A DNA stretch of 64,000 nt, taken from Acidobacteriota bacterium. Its GTDB lineage: Bacteria > Acidobacteriota > Vicinamibacteria > Vicinamibacterales > 2-12-FULL-66-21. A model generated the notes under the pieces. The model did no database searches. It saw only the letters and a list, made by a program, of their open reading frames with translations, and had not been told where the DNA came from. How positions within the stretch are numbered: position 1 is the first letter of the stretch; every line of letters starts with the position of its first letter. Position numbers and translations under genes: made by a program. Shown in pieces: positions 1,647 through 8,042 of this stretch. The stretch covers positions 1-64,000 of the forward strand of contig QHWT01000064.1 of NCBI GenBank assembly GCA_003222675.1, given 5' to 3'.

Positions 1647-2147
1647 TCAGGCGAGGCTTCGTAGCATTCTGGGCATGGCGAACCAGCGCAGCGCGCCGAC
1701 ACCTTTCGGGGGCAGCACTTCGAAATCGATTCGGCAGACGCCCCCTTTCTTGAACTCGAGCGGCGCTTTCGCGCCGATCAATTGCGCGGCAAGCTCTCCA
1801 AGGTTCGGTTCATGGCCGACGAGCGCGATGCGCTCCTTGCGCGCGTGGCGGCCGATTTCCTGGATCACCGCGGCGGGAGTGCCCGCCGGCGCGAGCGCGT
1901 CGGACGCCGCGACAGGCGGCTTGCTCTTGAGGATCTCGGCGATCACGTCCGCCGTCTGGCGCGTGCGCACCAGCGGGCTCGTGATGATTTGGTCGAATGT
2001 CACGCCAAGCGCAACAAGGCCTCGCGCTTCCTTTCGCAGCTTCGTAATCCCGCTACTCGTCAGCGGCCGCTTGGAGTCATCGGGCCAATCCTCGCCGCGA
2101 TCCTCGGCGACGCCGTGGCGGACGAGATAGAGTTCCAGCATCGCCAT
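1647..2147 (-). CDS. sixA: SixA-type phosphohistidine phosphatase (histidine phosphatase superfamily)
   Basis: The 166-residue protein has the RHG motif at residues 10-12, whose His11 is the expected phospho-acceptor. A second histidine sits in the VGHEPNLG segment at His112, and arginines lie in SPLVRTRQTA. This is the small SixA form of the histidine phosphatase superfamily, which in E. coli removes phosphate from histidine phosphotransfer proteins. Its start codon overlaps the stop of the CHAD gene (TGATG at 2145-2149), so the two are translationally coupled. SixA-CHAD pairing beside an exopolyphosphatase suggests a role in phosphate or polyphosphate biology rather than phosphorelay control; that is inference. 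Confidence 0.88.
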   Translation of the reverse strand: MAMLELYLVRHGVAEDRGEDWPDDSKRPLTSSGITKLRKEARGLVALGVTFDQIITSPLVRTRQTADVIAEILKSKPPVAASDALAPAGTPAAVIQEIGRHARKERIALVGHEPNLGELAAQLIGAKAPLEFKKGGVCRIDFEVLPPKGVGALRWFAMPRMLRSLA

Positions 2148-3097
2148 CAGCTTCGGCTGCCCGCGGTCCGCCGCCGCGCCGGCAGCGCCATCTTGGCAGC
2201 TCGCGACCGCCGCGGCGCAGTGAGGCGCACGGCCACCTGCAATCGCGAGGTCTCGAGCGCCTCACGCAGCAACGGAAGCATCGCAATATAGCGACCGTGC
2301 AGATGACGACATTCGTCTTCGATGCGACGCGCGAGCACCGCAAGACCGACGTCGGGCGTATCGCGCTGCGCTCCGCGGGGAGCCGCCGCAACCGCCGCGA
2401 CATGATGCTGCAGCACTTGCAGATCGTGGAGCCTGCCGAGCGCATCCTGCACACGCTTCAACGTCCGCACCGTCGCAGCCGCGGGTGCGGCGCCGCTCTC
2501 AGTGGCAATCTCTACCGCATAGCGGAGCTTCTTCGCCGCGATCCGCACCTGGTGCAGCGCTTCGGGTGCGTAGATCTGGCCGGCCTGCTCGATCGCTCGA
2601 TCGAGCCGCCGGGCGCGTTTGGCGATTCGCGAGGCCAGCGCGGCGCGCCAGTTGTGGCCTGGCGTTGGTGCGAGGAGCGCCAGTCGGACGGACTCGAGGC
2701 GCTTCGCGAGCTTATCGCCGTTCACGTCTGCAAGCCGTTCGTGCATCCTGGCACGCCGGCGCTCGCGCTCTTCGATGACATGGGCGCGCACGTCGACCAC
2801 CGCCGGGCGCGAAACGCCGGGCTTCTCTCCCATTTCCTCCAGCAGTTGAAGCGTGACGTCGAGCTCGCGCACCGTGCCGAGCGCACGCGTCAGCCGCCTG
2901 ATTTTTCTGCGCGCCTTGCCGCGTTTGCTGCCATTGAGGCCGTCGGTCAGCACCGGCACGGCCTCGCGCAGCCGCCGCGACGCGACGCGCGCCTGATGCA
3001 CGCCGATATCGTCACCCGCGATCGCCCGGGGCAAATGGCGGTGCAATGCGCGAGTGCGGCGTTCGAGGAGGCGGACCAGGTTGGGTGAACGGTTCAT
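2147..3097 (-). CDS. CHAD domain protein (putative polyphosphate-binding)
   Basis: This 316-residue protein is built almost entirely of a CHAD domain (conserved histidine alpha-helical domain). It shows the two diagnostic repeats: VHQARVASRRLREAV near residue 35 and LHQVRIAAKKLRYAV near residue 200. CHAD proteins are known to bind polyphosphate through a basic helical surface and to localise to polyphosphate granules. I chose the ATG at 3097 because the repeat signature begins soon after it; an upstream extension to 3151 has no family support. The gene is divergent from ppx/gppA with 95 bases between starts, and it overlaps sixA by the TGATG junction. Confidence 0.9.
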   Translation of the reverse strand: MNRSPNLVRLLERRTRALHRHLPRAIAGDDIGVHQARVASRRLREAVPVLTDGLNGSKRGKARRKIRRLTRALGTVRELDVTLQLLEEMGEKPGVSRPAVVDVRAHVIEERERRRARMHERLADVNGDKLAKRLESVRLALLAPTPGHNWRAALASRIAKRARRLDRAIEQAGQIYAPEALHQVRIAAKKLRYAVEIATESGAAPAAATVRTLKRVQDALGRLHDLQVLQHHVAAVAAAPRGAQRDTPDVGLAVLARRIEDECRHLHGRYIAMLPLLREALETSRLQVAVRLTAPRRSRAAKMALPARRRTAGSRS

Positions 3098-3192
3098 GGT
3101 AGGATTGCGGCCGGCTCGACGGAAGGCCAGTATATATCGCAGGTGTAACAAGCAAGGACGCCGCCAGCCGGGCCGTTTCGGCTCCCGCCTTC
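3098..3192. promoter_or_regulatory. Divergent promoter region between CHAD gene and ppx
   Basis: The 95-base gap separates the divergent starts at 3097 and 3193. A TATATAT stretch near 3131-3137 is the only clear AT-rich element and could act as a -10 site. No PHO-box-like array like that before pstB is visible here. Shared control of the sixA-CHAD and ppx sides is plausible from the geometry alone. Confidence 0.35.
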
Positions 3193-4863
3193 ATGCGTAT
3201 TGCCGCCATCGACATTGGAACGAACTCCATCCACATGATCGTCGTGCAGGTCCGCCCAGACCTGTCCTTCGAAGTCATTGATCGGGAAAAGGAAATGGTT
3301 CGTCTGGGCGCGGGAGGTCTTGACGGACGCAGTCTCACGCCCACGGCCATCAGGGCTGCCCTGCAGACACTTGCCAAGTTCAAGCGTCTCGCGGATTCGC
3401 ACAAAGTTGACGAGATTGTGGCTTCGGCGACCTCTGCCACTCGCGAAGCTGACAACGGCGGCGATTTCATCGCGGAGGTGGAACGGCAGACCGGCATACG
3501 GATTCGCGTGATTTCGGGGGCAGAGGAGGCGCGCCTCATCCATCTCGCGGCGGCTTACGGAGTCGATATTGGCGGCAGCCCCGCCGTGGTGATTGACATC
3601 GGCGGCGGAAGCGTCGAGATCACCCTCGGATCCGCGACCCATCTGACGCAGGCTGAAAGCTTCAAGCTCGGCGTCATCAGGCTCACGGAACGCTTCGTGA
3701 AGTCGGATCCGCTTTCCGATCGTGACGAGCGCCGGCTCGTCAAACATATAAACCAGGAACTCGGGTCGTACGTTGACGGCATCGCAGGACGCAAGTTCGA
3801 GCGCGTGATCGGCACGTCCGGCACAATCTTGAGCCTGGGAGCGCTCGCACTGAACGAAGAAGGCGGCACCAATCCGGAGGAGCTGCGGAATCGGCGCGTC
3901 GCGGCGAAGACGATCCACCGAATCAGGAAGCGGCTCAGCAGCGTCGATTTGGAAGCGCGCCTTCACATACCCGGCCTCGACCCGCGCCGCGCGGATATCG
4001 CGGTGGCGGGGTCGATTCTGCTCGATACGATCCTGCGTCACCTCAACACGCAGCACTTGACGCTCTGCGATCTCGCGCTGCGTGAAGGGCTCGTGCTCGA
4101 CTACATCCACCGCAACACCTTTCGCATCCGCAAGGTGGAGCGCTACCCCGACGTGCGCCGCCGGAGCATCGTGGAACTCGGGGAGCGCTGCCGCTACTGG
4201 GCGGAGCACGCGCAACAGGTCGCGCGACTCGCGGTGTCCTTGTTCGATCAGACGCGCGCGATGCACAAGCTCGGCGATCGGGAGCGCGAGTGGCTCGAGT
4301 ATGGAGCGCTGCTGCACGATGTCGGCGTCCACATCAGCTACGAGAAGCACCATCGACACTCGTACTACCTGATCAAGAACGGCGACCTGCGCGGGTTCGA
4401 TCCCGCGGAAATCGAGATCATCGCGCTCATCGCGCGCTACCATCGACAAGCGGCGCCGAAGAAATCCCACGACGGTTACGGCACGCTCAAAGGCGCGGAG
4501 CGCCGAACGGTCCGTGCGCTCTCGGCGATGGTCCGGCTGGCCGAAGGCCTCGATCGCAGCCACTCGCAAGCGGTCTCCGGCGTTGACGTGTTCCCACGCG
4601 GCGACGCTTACTTCGTGCGCCTGCGCGCATCGGGAGACGCGGAACTCGAATTGTGGGCGGCGGTTCGCCACGCGGCGCCGCTCGAAAAGATGCTCGGCCG
4701 CCCGATTCGCTTCGAAGTGTCGGGACGAGAGCACAAGGAACGCAGATCGAATGTTGAACAATCTGACCACGCCGCACGAGTATCCCGGAAAGCTGTTCGT
4801 CGTGGAGGGCATCGACGGGTCGGGAAAGACGACGCAGCTGGCGCTGCTGGCGAAGTGGCTTAG
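3193..4863 (+). CDS. ppx: Ppx/GppA exopolyphosphatase with C-terminal HD domain
   Basis: The 556-residue protein opens with MRIAAIDIGTNSIHMIV, the phosphate-1 motif of the ASKHA fold. It has the DIGGGSVEIT phosphate-2 motif near residue 135 and a C-terminal HD-type domain (LLHDVGVH, His375-Asp376) typical of long Ppx/GppA enzymes. These hydrolyse polyphosphate ends or pppGpp. The last 37 codons run in a second frame through the start of the next gene (113-base overlap with the ATG at 4751). The residues there (RRGGHRRVGKDDAAG) do not look like a family C-terminus, so a frameshift near 4750 or a natural read-on tail is possible. Exopolyphosphatase is favoured over GppA by the CHAD, PstB and PhoU neighbours. 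Confidence 0.92.
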   Translation: MRIAAIDIGTNSIHMIVVQVRPDLSFEVIDREKEMVRLGAGGLDGRSLTPTAIRAALQTLAKFKRLADSHKVDEIVASATSATREADNGGDFIAEVERQTGIRIRVISGAEEARLIHLAAAYGVDIGGSPAVVIDIGGGSVEITLGSATHLTQAESFKLGVIRLTERFVKSDPLSDRDERRLVKHINQELGSYVDGIAGRKFERVIGTSGTILSLGALALNEEGGTNPEELRNRRVAAKTIHRIRKRLSSVDLEARLHIPGLDPRRADIAVAGSILLDTILRHLNTQHLTLCDLALREGLVLDYIHRNTFRIRKVERYPDVRRRSIVELGERCRYWAEHAQQVARLAVSLFDQTRAMHKLGDREREWLEYGALLHDVGVHISYEKHHRHSYYLIKNGDLRGFDPAEIEIIALIARYHRQAAPKKSHDGYGTLKGAERRTVRALSAMVRLAEGLDRSHSQAVSGVDVFPRGDAYFVRLRASGDAELELWAAVRHAAPLEKMLGRPIRFEVSGREHKERRSNVEQSDHAARVSRKAVRRGGHRRVGKDDAAGAAGEVA

Positions 4864-5446
4864 CGCGGCTGGCCACCCGGTGTTCATGACCGAGTGGAAT
4901 TCATCGGCGCTGGTGAAAGCGGCGACAAAGGCCGGCAAGAAGAAGAACGCGCTGACGCCGATGACATTCAGCCTGCTCCACGCGACCGACTTCGCGGACC
5001 GGCTGCTCTATAACATCATCCCGCCGCTCAAGGCCGGAATGATTGTGCTCGCCGACCGCTACTCGTACACGGCATTCGCGCGCGATGCGGCGCGCGGCGT
5101 TGATCGGCGCTGGGTGCGCGAGCTTTACAGCTTCGCGGCCAAGCCGGACATGGCGGTGTACTTCCGCGTGCCGATCGACGTCTCGGTAGACCGCCTGCTC
5201 GCGCGGCGCGTGAAGCTGAAATTCTATGAAGCCGGACTCGACATGGGCTGGAGCACGAACGCCGTGGAGAGCTTCCGCATGTTCCAGGGCAAGGTGCTCG
5301 ACGAGTACGACCGCCTTGTCGAAGAGTACGGCCTGAGCGTCGTCAACGCCATCGGCAGCATTACCGAGCAGCAGCGCGTGTTCCGCAAGCTCGTGTCGCA
5401 GCACCTGGAGATCGAGAATCATGAACAGCTCGACGAATCCGCCTGA
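4751..5446 (+). CDS. Thymidylate-kinase-like P-loop protein, copy 1
   Basis: The 231-residue protein carries a canonical P-loop GIDGSGKTT at residues 20-28 and the DRY motif of thymidylate kinases (LADRYSYTAFAR). The middle and C-terminal parts differ from housekeeping Tmk, with a segment RRVKLKFYEAGLDMG where the LID is expected. I place the start at the ATG at 4751 inside the ppx gene; everything upstream in this frame is ppx shadow. The next gene is a diverged paralogue that overlaps it by 26 bases. Dedicated dTMP synthesis by two tandem copies in a polyphosphate locus seems unlikely, so a polyphosphate- or nucleotide-linked kinase role is inferred but unproven. Confidence 0.82.
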   Translation: MLNNLTTPHEYPGKLFVVEGIDGSGKTTQLALLAKWLSAAGHPVFMTEWNSSALVKAATKAGKKKNALTPMTFSLLHATDFADRLLYNIIPPLKAGMIVLADRYSYTAFARDAARGVDRRWVRELYSFAAKPDMAVYFRVPIDVSVDRLLARRVKLKFYEAGLDMGWSTNAVESFRMFQGKVLDEYDRLVEEYGLSVVNAIGSITEQQRVFRKLVSQHLEIENHEQLDESA

Positions 5447-6176
5447 GCCCACGGAGGGCAGCCGGGCGGGCCACTATTACAGCTACGGCATTCCGTACCT
5501 GTCGATCGACAACTATCCGGGAAAACTGATTGCGATCGAAGGGACCGACGGCGTCGGACGCTCCACGCAGATCCGGCTGCTGCGTGAATGGCTCGAGATC
5601 CAGGGCTACGGCGTCATCGAGACCGGCTGGACGCGATCGGAGCTGATGCAGCCGACGATTGAGGTCGCCAAGGGGAGCAACACGCTCAACAAGCTGACGT
5701 TCGTGCTCCTCTACGCGACCGACTTCGCAGACCGCCTCGAAAAGGAGATCATCCCGGCGCTGAAAGCGGGCTTCATCGTGCTGTCGGACCGGTACATCTT
5801 CACGGCGCTCGCGCGCGCGGGCGTGCGCGGCGTGGATCGCGCGTGGATCAGAAATCTCTACGGCTTCGGCATCGCGCCGCACCTGGTCTTCTACCTGCGC
5901 ATCGATGAAAAGACGCTGATCCGGCGCGTGCTGCAATCGCGCGGCATGGACTACTGGGAATCGGGCATGGACCTGAAGCTCGGCGACGATATCTACGAAA
6001 GCTTCCGGGCGTACCAGAAGGCGCTGTTGAAAGAGTACGGCTCAATGGCGGACGAGTTCGGGTTCCGCGTGCTCGACGCGCGACGCAAGGTGGAAGTGAT
6101 CCAGGACGAGTTGCGGAGACAGATCGCGGGATTCCTTGCTGAGGCTGACGTGCCGGCTGCCGTCAGAACTGAGTAG
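5421..6176 (+). CDS. Thymidylate-kinase-like protein, copy 2, with altered P-loop
   Basis: The 251-residue paralogue of the preceding gene has an extra ~30-residue N-terminus (GHYYSYGIPYLSIDNYPGK). Its P-loop reads GTDGVGRST at residues 41-49, so the invariant Walker A lysine is arginine (Arg47). The LSDRYIFTALAR motif and the shared blocks ATDFADRL, RGVDRxWxRxLY and ESFRxxQ are kept. Loss of the lysine usually abolishes or weakens ATP hydrolysis, so this copy may be a regulatory or heterodimer partner of copy 1. It starts 26 bases before the stop of copy 1, which suggests coupled translation and fixed stoichiometry. The function is not known. Confidence 0.8.
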   Translation: MNSSTNPPEPTEGSRAGHYYSYGIPYLSIDNYPGKLIAIEGTDGVGRSTQIRLLREWLEIQGYGVIETGWTRSELMQPTIEVAKGSNTLNKLTFVLLYATDFADRLEKEIIPALKAGFIVLSDRYIFTALARAGVRGVDRAWIRNLYGFGIAPHLVFYLRIDEKTLIRRVLQSRGMDYWESGMDLKLGDDIYESFRAYQKALLKEYGSMADEFGFRVLDARRKVEVIQDELRRQIAGFLAEADVPAAVRTE

Positions 6177-6268: not shown

Positions 6269-6307
6269 GTTACACGTCCGTTACAGGACGGTAACGGACG
6301 TGAAACG
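6269..6307 (+). promoter_or_regulatory. PHO-box-like array of four 11-bp repeats upstream of pstB
   Basis: Four hexamers, GTTACA, GTTACA, GTAACG and GAAACG, start at 6269, 6280, 6291 and 6302. That is exactly every 11 bases, each followed by a 5-base spacer. This is the geometry of PhoB/PhoP binding sites (for example the TTAACA-N5 repeats of Bacillus and the 11-bp direct repeats of Streptomyces). The region is also a strong palindrome: ACGTCCGTTAC at 6274-6284 faces GTAACGGACGT at 6291-6301. A TAGCAT hexamer (6317-6322) follows 9 bases after the array, so the array takes the place of the -35 element, as in PhoB-activated promoters. Confidence 0.75.
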
Positions 6308-6316
6308 GGCTATCCC

Positions 6317-6322
6317 TAGCAT
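6317..6322 (+). promoter_or_regulatory. Candidate -10 element of pstB
   Basis: TAGCAT lies 9 bases after the PHO-box-like array and 6 bases before the ATG at 6329. If used, transcription would start at or next to the start codon, giving a leaderless message. There is no ribosome-binding site before 6329, which agrees with this. Confidence 0.45.
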
Positions 6323-6328
6323 GGGCTG

Positions 6329-7204
6329 ATGGCTGCCCCCGCCGTTTCATCCGAGCGCCCGACCATGGTTCCCGACATGCGTGCGGCGCTTGCGGCACGC
6401 GCCGAAGGGCGAATGGGCGGAGCGCGCGGCAACGGCACCGCCGGATCCACCGACAAGATCATCGTCCGGGATCTCAATTTCTATTACGGCACGAAGCGCG
6501 CGCTCGAGAACATCAACGTCACGATTCCTGCCAGACGCGTCACCGCCTTCATCGGTCCGTCCGGGTGTGGCAAGAGCACGTTCCTGCGGACGCTCAACCG
6601 GATGAACGACATCATCACGGGCTCACGCGTGGAAGGGGAAATCCGGATCGACGGACGCGACATCTACGACCGCGGTACGGACGTGGTGGCTCTGCGGCGC
6701 CGCGTCGGGATGGTGTTTCAGAAATCGAATCCGTTTCCAAAGTCGATCTTCGAGAATATCGCGTACGGGCTGCGGCTGAACGGGATGGCCGGAAGCCGAT
6801 CCGAGCTGGCCGGGCGCGTCGAACAGAGTCTCGAGGCGGCGGCGATCTGGGATGAAGTCAAGGATCGGCTCCATGAGTCCGCGCTGGCGCTCTCCGGCGG
6901 GCAGCAGCAGCGGCTCTGCATCGCGCGCGCGCTCGCCATCGCACCGGAAGTCCTCTTGATGGACGAACCGGCATCCGCGCTCGACCCGATCGCCACCCAG
7001 CGCATCGAGGAATTGATCTACCAGCTCAAGGCGAACTACACGATTGTCATCGTCACGCATAACATGCAGCAGGCGGCGCGCGTGTCGGACAACACCGCAT
7101 TCTTCTGGCTGGGGCGGCTCGTCGAATTCGGTCCGACCGATCGGATTTTCACGAACCCGGCCGAGAAGCTGACCGAAGATTACGTGACTGGACGATTCGG
7201 ATAA
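6329..7204 (+). CDS. pstB: Phosphate ABC transporter ATP-binding protein PstB
   Basis: The 291-residue ATPase energises high-affinity phosphate import. It has Walker [10 protein letters not shown] at residues 76-84, a PstB-type Q-loop ([17 protein letters not shown]), the signature [16 protein letters not shown] and Walker [14 protein letters not shown]. These exact variants are specific to PstB. The ATG at 6329 leaves an ~40-residue Ala/Gly-rich N-terminal extension before the domain; the ATG at 6365 is an alternative start. The PstS, PstC and PstA partners are not in the window, so the gene is separated from its transporter but followed by phoU. The 11-bp array upstream suggests induction by phosphate limitation. 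Confidence 0.96.
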
Positions 7205-7364
7205 TCGAGGCATTCGAAGAAGACGAAGGACTCGAAGAAGCCGGAAGAAATCGAAACGAGATTCGCTCTTATCTTTGAATCACATTCCATCCCTTCGATT
7301 TATTGAAGGTTGATTGTCCTTCGATTCGTTCGATCGGTCCTTCGGCCTTCGATGTGAAACAGAC
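7205..7364. repeat. pstB-phoU gap with facing GAAG/CTTC short repeats
   Basis: Bases 7211-7255 are rich in TCGAAGAAG-type units, and 7298-7352 hold the facing CCTTCGAT-type units. The gap could therefore fold into a long imperfect hairpin. It resembles the other paired low-complexity repeats in the window and lies inside the presumed pstB-phoU transcription unit. Confidence 0.5.
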
Positions 7365-8042
7365 ATGGCGACATCCAGCGTTCCGCACTTCCAGGAAGAG
7401 CTCGAGCAACTCAAGGCGCGCCTGCTCGAGATGGGCGGGCTGGCCGAGGACCGCGTGCGCTCTGCGGTGAAGGCGCTCGTCGACCGTGATGCGTCCCTGG
7501 TCGATGCGGTGCTTGCAGGCGACCAGCCGATCAACCAGCTGCACATCGAGATCGACGGTCGCTGCTTCAGGATGCTTGCGCTGCACCAGCCGATGGCGGT
7601 CGATCTGCGCGCCATCATGTCCGCCGTCAAGATCAACACCGATCTCGAGCGCGTCGGAGATCTTGCCATCAACATCGCCGAAGCGGTGCTGCGGTACCTG
7701 GGACATGCACTGGTCAAAGAGCTGATTGACATTCCGCGAATGTCGGACATCGCCCAGGCCATGCTGCGCGATGCGCTCGACGCGTACGTGCGGCGTGACA
7801 TGATGCTCGCGCAGGCGGTGCTCGATCAGGACGACACGCTCGATGCCTTGAAGACGGAGGTCTTCCGCGAGCTGTTGACGTATATGTTGCGCGACGCGCA
7901 GACCATCGAGCCGGCGCTCGATCTGATCCTCATTTCCCGGCACCTCGAACGAATCGGCGACCACGCGACCAACATCGCCGAGGACGTCATCTTCATGGTT
8001 TCCGCGCGGGACGTCCGACACCACGCCAGCGACCTCAAGTGA
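7365..8042 (+). CDS. phoU: Phosphate uptake regulator PhoU
   Basis: The 225-residue protein consists of two three-helix PhoU repeats. Each has the conserved metal-binding core: LERVGDLAINIAE in the first half and LERIGDHATNIAEDVIFM in the second. PhoU dampens the PhoR/PhoB response and PstSCAB activity when phosphate is sufficient. I chose the ATG at 7365 because the family begins shortly before PHFQEELEQLK; an in-frame start at 7314 would add residues encoded by the repeat-rich leader. It follows pstB in the same direction with a 160-base gap. Confidence 0.95.
   Translation: MATSSVPHFQEELEQLKARLLEMGGLAEDRVRSAVKALVDRDASLVDAVLAGDQPINQLHIEIDGRCFRMLALHQPMAVDLRAIMSAVKINTDLERVGDLAINIAEAVLRYLGHALVKELIDIPRMSDIAQAMLRDALDAYVRRDMMLAQAVLDQDDTLDALKTEVFRELLTYMLRDAQTIEPALDLILISRHLERIGDHATNIAEDVIFMVSARDVRHHASDLK

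Follow-up and report, generated by a model that had tools for sequence, protein, structure and literature searches.

The PhoP box of Bacillus subtilis has the consensus TT[ACT]A[CT]A, repeated with 5 bases between the units. PHO boxes are defined by tandem 11-nt units with a species-specific consensus (PMC4415409), and in E. coli a -35 element is replaced by the box (PMC4971064). The array described here lies upstream of pstB in an Acidobacteriota bacterium of the order Vicinamibacterales, within a window (the whole 64,000-nt stretch of DNA that was analysed) that is part of contig C38 of the 7.16-Mb genome. With a probability of roughly 0.93, we propose that the array is a PHO box, that is, a set of tandem, head-to-tail 11-bp operator units for a PhoB-type response regulator, which precedes the -10 element and takes the place of the -35 element. 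It stands between a thymidylate-kinase-like gene (end at 6176) and pstB (start at 6329), and the following features were assigned at the locus:

6269..6279, + strand: putative PHO-box unit 1 (GTTACACGTCC), sequence read directly; homologous unit 1 in relatives
6280..6290, + strand: putative PHO-box unit 2 (GTTACAGGACG); TT[TA]AC here in nearly all other sites
6291..6301, + strand: putative PHO-box unit 3 (GTAACGGACGT); GAAAC/T here in most relatives
6302..6312, + strand: putative PHO-box unit 4 (GAAACGGGCTA), from the sequence and the alignment of relatives
6317..6322, + strand: candidate -10 element TAGCAT (TANNNT), starting 15 bases from the start of unit 4
6329..6331, + strand: pstB ATG; the predicted transcription start is the 7th base after the -10 element
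6329..7204, + strand: pstB, phosphate ABC transporter ATPase (TIGR00972, 401.8 bits against a cut-off of 343.2)
7365..8042, + strand: phoU (TIGR02135, 223.9 bits against a cut-off of 130.25)
6269..6306, no strand: inverted repeat with arms 6269-6284 and 6291-6306 (15/16 pairs), judged incidental

On direct reading, the units begin with GTTACA (6269), GTTACA (6280), GTAACG (6291) and GAAACG (6302), followed by the spacers cgtcc, ggacg, gacgt and ggcta, respectively, while tccc lies between unit 4 and TAGCAT, giving a 9-base gap from the fourth hexamer to TAGCAT. The sequence-only reading that preceded this analysis had placed four hexamers at these positions in 11-base steps and a TAGCAT -10 candidate 9 bases further on, and its coordinates and gap are correct. 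Its description of the four as GTTACA-type hexamers holds for the periodicity of GWWAC, the element common to all four units, and not for the literal GTTACA, which is present in only two of them. The + strand of the window contains 103 copies of GWWAC, and the commonest spacing of GWWAC pairs is 11, with 5 pairs; no other spacing in the range 7 to 15 has more than 2. Four consecutive copies at 11-base steps occur once, whereas about 4e-7 such runs per window are expected from the product of frequencies. Periodicity that arose by chance at an ordinary, constitutively active promoter would fit the weak profile match of this pstB site taken alone, but it has to face this low expectation as well as the missing -35 element, and it is refuted by the conservation of the array across families and genera; we consider its probability negligible.

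PstB has approximately 43 variable residues ahead of its conserved core, and pstB is followed by phoU in most relatives too. In this genome, pstB-phoU lies apart from porin-pstSCA and phoB, which are located on another contig (C26). Between ppx and pstB, two thymidylate-kinase-like genes stand in tandem (window 4751-5446 and 5421-6176, + strand) and are 42% identical to each other. With the dTMP kinase model, whose cut-off is 83 bits, the second reaches 78 bits. About 14 of 30 relatives keep the pair upstream of pstB, at 75-90% identity. The genes at 1647-4863 of the window, which encode a SixA-like protein of the histidine phosphatase family, a CHAD-domain protein and an exopolyphosphatase, form a polyphosphate neighbourhood adjoining pstB-phoU, and the pstB-phoU gap (window 7205-7360) contains low-complexity runs of repeated TCGAAG/TTCGAT-like sequence.

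For comparison, pstB relatives were drawn from 80 family and order genomes and further contigs, including Acidobacteria MAGs such as Luteitalea; many of the genomes compared are MAGs. The array is present at the same place in 29 stand-alone pstB loci of Vicinamibacterales, and the gap-free alignment of these sites, which was anchored on units 2-3 and not on the -10 element, reads KTTAC / TT[TA]ACA / GAAAC / GAAAY in 11-base steps. Of the 27 pstB sites that come from other genera, 19 have TANNNT starting at +15 from unit 4 and three have it at +16, and it is found almost nowhere else in these aligned sites. The consensus of this putative PHO box can be written as KTWACnCnGAA-TTWACAc-N4-GAAAC-N6-GAAAY-N10-TAnnnT. 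In leave-one-out scoring, all 29 sites, including the weak scorers L111, L102 and L135, lie above the 22 pstB loci without the array, nearly all of which have pstB inside a pst operon. The pstB site of the window scores 19.4 bits when its own genus is left out of training and beats 300 of 300 local shuffles (P = 1/301). It is weak (11.1 bits in the window and 17.3 bits, respectively) with two search profiles, R1, derived from 26 pstB sites of relatives with the own genus and the -10 element left out, and R2, which comprises 65 sites with the -10 element included, and it is not among the matches of the genome-wide searches. Its assignment rests on orthology and geometry.

The same DNA had also been described as a near-perfect palindrome with 16-base arms and one mismatch. 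This inverted repeat is real, with 15 of 16 arm positions complementary, and it is rare in the window, which would suit a dimeric repressor or activator acting on a 16-base palindrome. However, the other pstB sites show only 3-11 of 16 pairs (11 within the same genus), a wider set averages 6.7, and the direct repeats and the distance to the -10 element are retained where the palindrome fades. The conserved two-fold symmetry of a palindromic operator was not found among these sites, with only the own site reaching 15/16. The symmetry arises because unit 3 reads GTAAC, the reverse complement of GTTAC, which alone goes far towards creating the palindrome. We judge the palindrome to be private to this genome and incidental, and a role of the inverted repeat as the signal to be extremely unlikely.

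Within the window, no TTGACA-like -35 element is found at the usual distance, where positions 6294-6299 read ACGGAC, and the consensus of the sites at the -35 position is ACnnnn, not TTGACA. The earlier proposal that the array takes the place of the -35 element of pstB is supported by this lack of a -35 and by the fixed distance of the -10 element across the sites. The -10 element ends at +20 from unit 4, and the transcript start is expected at +27. Of the 29 pstB sites, 13 have an ATG at +27/+28, in every case in frame with PstB; among the 58 other sites, 20 have one there, compared with a background of 1.5% per position elsewhere. Because the start codon so often sits at the predicted transcript start, as it does at pstB of the window, we predict that the pstB mRNA is leaderless. 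A TANNNT element about 12 bp before the start codon serves as a criterion for leaderless genes, which are predicted to make up an average of 13.3% in three Acidobacteria genomes (PMC3160421); the first T of TAGCAT lies 12 bp before the pstB ATG. Leaders are longer for the porin, pstC and pit genes.

In the own 7.16-Mb genome, the best three matches of R1 all fall on the 20-kb contig C26, at the pst/pho locus: one precedes phoB (C26:16353) and two precede porin-pstSCA (C26:11269 and C26:11187), in the gap between pit/DUF47 on the minus strand and porin-pstS-pstC-pstA. The phoB site (L130:7354-7394) has TACGCT at +15 and an ATG two bases past the expected leaderless start. No box was seen directly before the own pstS; the box stands before the porin gene that opens the operon. 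Three successive array matches occupy C26:11147-11307 (L130:2140-2310) in the gap from pit/DUF47 to porin-pstSCA and perhaps serve both directions. The fourth R1 match in the genome (C50:62336, E 1.27) is not located before a phosphate gene and has no -10 element, and we regard it as a chance match. The literal GTTACA-N5-GTTACA, suggested earlier as a search motif, did not prove useful: it occurs exactly once in the 7.16-Mb genome, and with two mismatches allowed it shows no excess over the reversed control in the own genome, so that the pair in its literal form serves poorly for searching a genome, although the array itself is real. The next-best match of this search (C79:5079) is close to a long ORF for which no connection with phosphate was seen.

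Across the 80 relatives and the own genome, R1 yielded 59 matches outside the training set. By first gene, these new sites precede phoB (19), pstS (17, where three pstS-type proteins were confirmed with TIGR02136 and others without a BLAST match to the own PstS were assigned by resemblance to these), porin-pstS (8), pstC (5), pit (2), pstB (1), phoU (1) or other genes (6). In all, 53 of the 59 stand before phosphate genes of the kinds named, and at 18 bits or more the share is 43 of 44. The own PstS is recognised by TIGR00975 and poorly by TIGR02136. With the C50 match left out, 48 of 58 new sites carry TANNNT at +15 from unit 4, against a background of 0.3% per position (nominal binomial P 2e-112, which ignores the relatedness of the genomes), and four further sites fit the -10 spacing once shifted by one 11-base unit. 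Where a genome has a pstSCAB operon, the box stands before pstS and not before pstB, which indicates that the array follows the promoter, not the gene. Conservation before orthologous pst genes, the test put forward with the sequence-only reading, was examined here, and within the order the array is conserved before pstB and also before pstS, pstC, porin-pstS, phoB, pit and phoU. One relative carries an array before a TonB-dependent-receptor-like gene (L225, G048:C333:9580-9620), a candidate new member of the phosphate regulon.

The genome encodes both a PhoB-like response regulator and a PhoR-like kinase, each a best-hit assignment below its NCBIfam equivalog cut-off: the closest NCBIfam model to the own phoB (L130:7415-8110) is TIGR02154 PhoB (225 bits against 296), and the best PhoR/PnpS-like kinase of the genome (269 against 334) lies at C26:8499-9374, in the same locus as phoB. 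With 69 histidine kinase matches in the genome and many OmpR-family members binding tandem direct repeats, another regulator of the OmpR/PhoB family, unconnected with phosphate, might use the array. However, the targets are phosphate genes with few exceptions, and in 19 cases the gene is phoB itself, the usual autoregulation, which makes such a regulator very unlikely.

At E <= 0.001, R2 found the module in 16 of 199 genomes across the phylum, 14 of them Vicinamibacterales. One of the two matches outside the order precedes a porin-like gene adjoining pst genes (L254), and the other is near lipid-type genes. The latter match to the promoter module (L255:1501-1554), in a different class of the phylum, lies between two genes and a PHP-like gene. 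We take the two genes to resemble betaine-lipid synthesis genes, with only weak methyltransferase matches in NCBIfam, and a link of this match to lipid remodelling under phosphate starvation is possible. Judged by the R2 matches, the detailed consensus is largely a feature of the order, and other classes may use other boxes.

At the level of sequence, the array shows 11-bp head-to-tail units, a position upstream of phosphate genes, among them pst genes and the gene of the regulator, and a fixed -10 spacing without a -35 element. The original suggestion that its periodic geometry matches PhoB/PhoP sites is supported by this conservation, by the association with phosphate genes, and by the fixed -10 and missing -35 elements. 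The promoter is best described as a putative PhoB-activated promoter of the ordinary kind with a consensus of its own. Considering the mechanism in E. coli, we propose the following hypothetical sequence of events, in which (i) phosphate scarcity would lead a PhoR-like kinase to phosphorylate PhoB; (ii) PhoB~P would bind the four units on one helix face and recruit RNA polymerase to TAGCAT at 6317; (iii) transcription would start on the pstB ATG at 6329 or no more than a base or two away from it, yielding a predicted leaderless pstB-phoU mRNA; and (iv) pstB-phoU would be tied to the separate porin-pstSCA and phoB by the same operator. More tentatively, and with slightly less than an even chance in our estimate, Vicinamibacterales may possess a rigid module that locks a four-unit PHO box, a -10 element without a -35 and the start codon into about 60 bases, so that PhoB alone would set the transcription start and the leaderless translation start of pstS, pstB and phoB, the distal TTWACA and proximal GAAAY units being specialised, perhaps for ordered binding.

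The literature searched, itself a limited collection, held no publication combining the pho box, PhoB and Acidobacteria, and within these limits a PHO box is apparently undescribed before in Acidobacteriota. The model offers a searchable operator and promoter for the phosphate regulon of an abundant, largely uncultured soil order, and the shared operator links the two parts of a split pst system (pstB-phoU and porin-pstSCA). It also helps to fix start codons and predicts phosphate-starvation-responsive genes from sequence alone.

Compared with the PhoP box of B. subtilis, the array shares the 11-bp period, and the TTTACA and TTAACA of the relatives fit the Bacillus consensus; in contrast, the two promoter-proximal units read GAAAC/T, and units 1 and 2 of the window begin with G. 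The earlier statement that the hexamer differs from both the E. coli and the Bacillus consensus holds for E. coli CTGTCAT, whereas for Bacillus GTTACA is the local form and the order consensus (KTWAC, TTWACA, GAAAC/T) comes closer to the PhoP box than claimed. The PhoP units of Streptomyces (GTTCACC; PMC4415409) resemble the array in occurring in a GC-rich genome as 11-nt units of multi-unit operators, but differ from its GTTAC/TTAAC/GAAAC. The leaderless genes of PMC3160421, in which TANNNT stands about 12 bp ahead of the start codon, resemble pstB, where the -10 element is additionally locked to a putative activator array. The PhoB-dependent pho box promoters of E. coli (pstS, phoB and phoA) share with the array the tandem 11-nt direct repeats, the box near the -10 element replacing the -35 element, and the position before pst genes and phoB (PMC4415409, PMC4971064, PMC10294691). 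The CTGTCAT unit of E. coli is not seen in the array, which has KTWACnCnGAA, TTWACAC, GAAAC and GAAAY instead, together with predicted leaderless transcripts; since the consensus varies between species (PMC4415409), this mismatch is not defining outside E. coli and its relatives.
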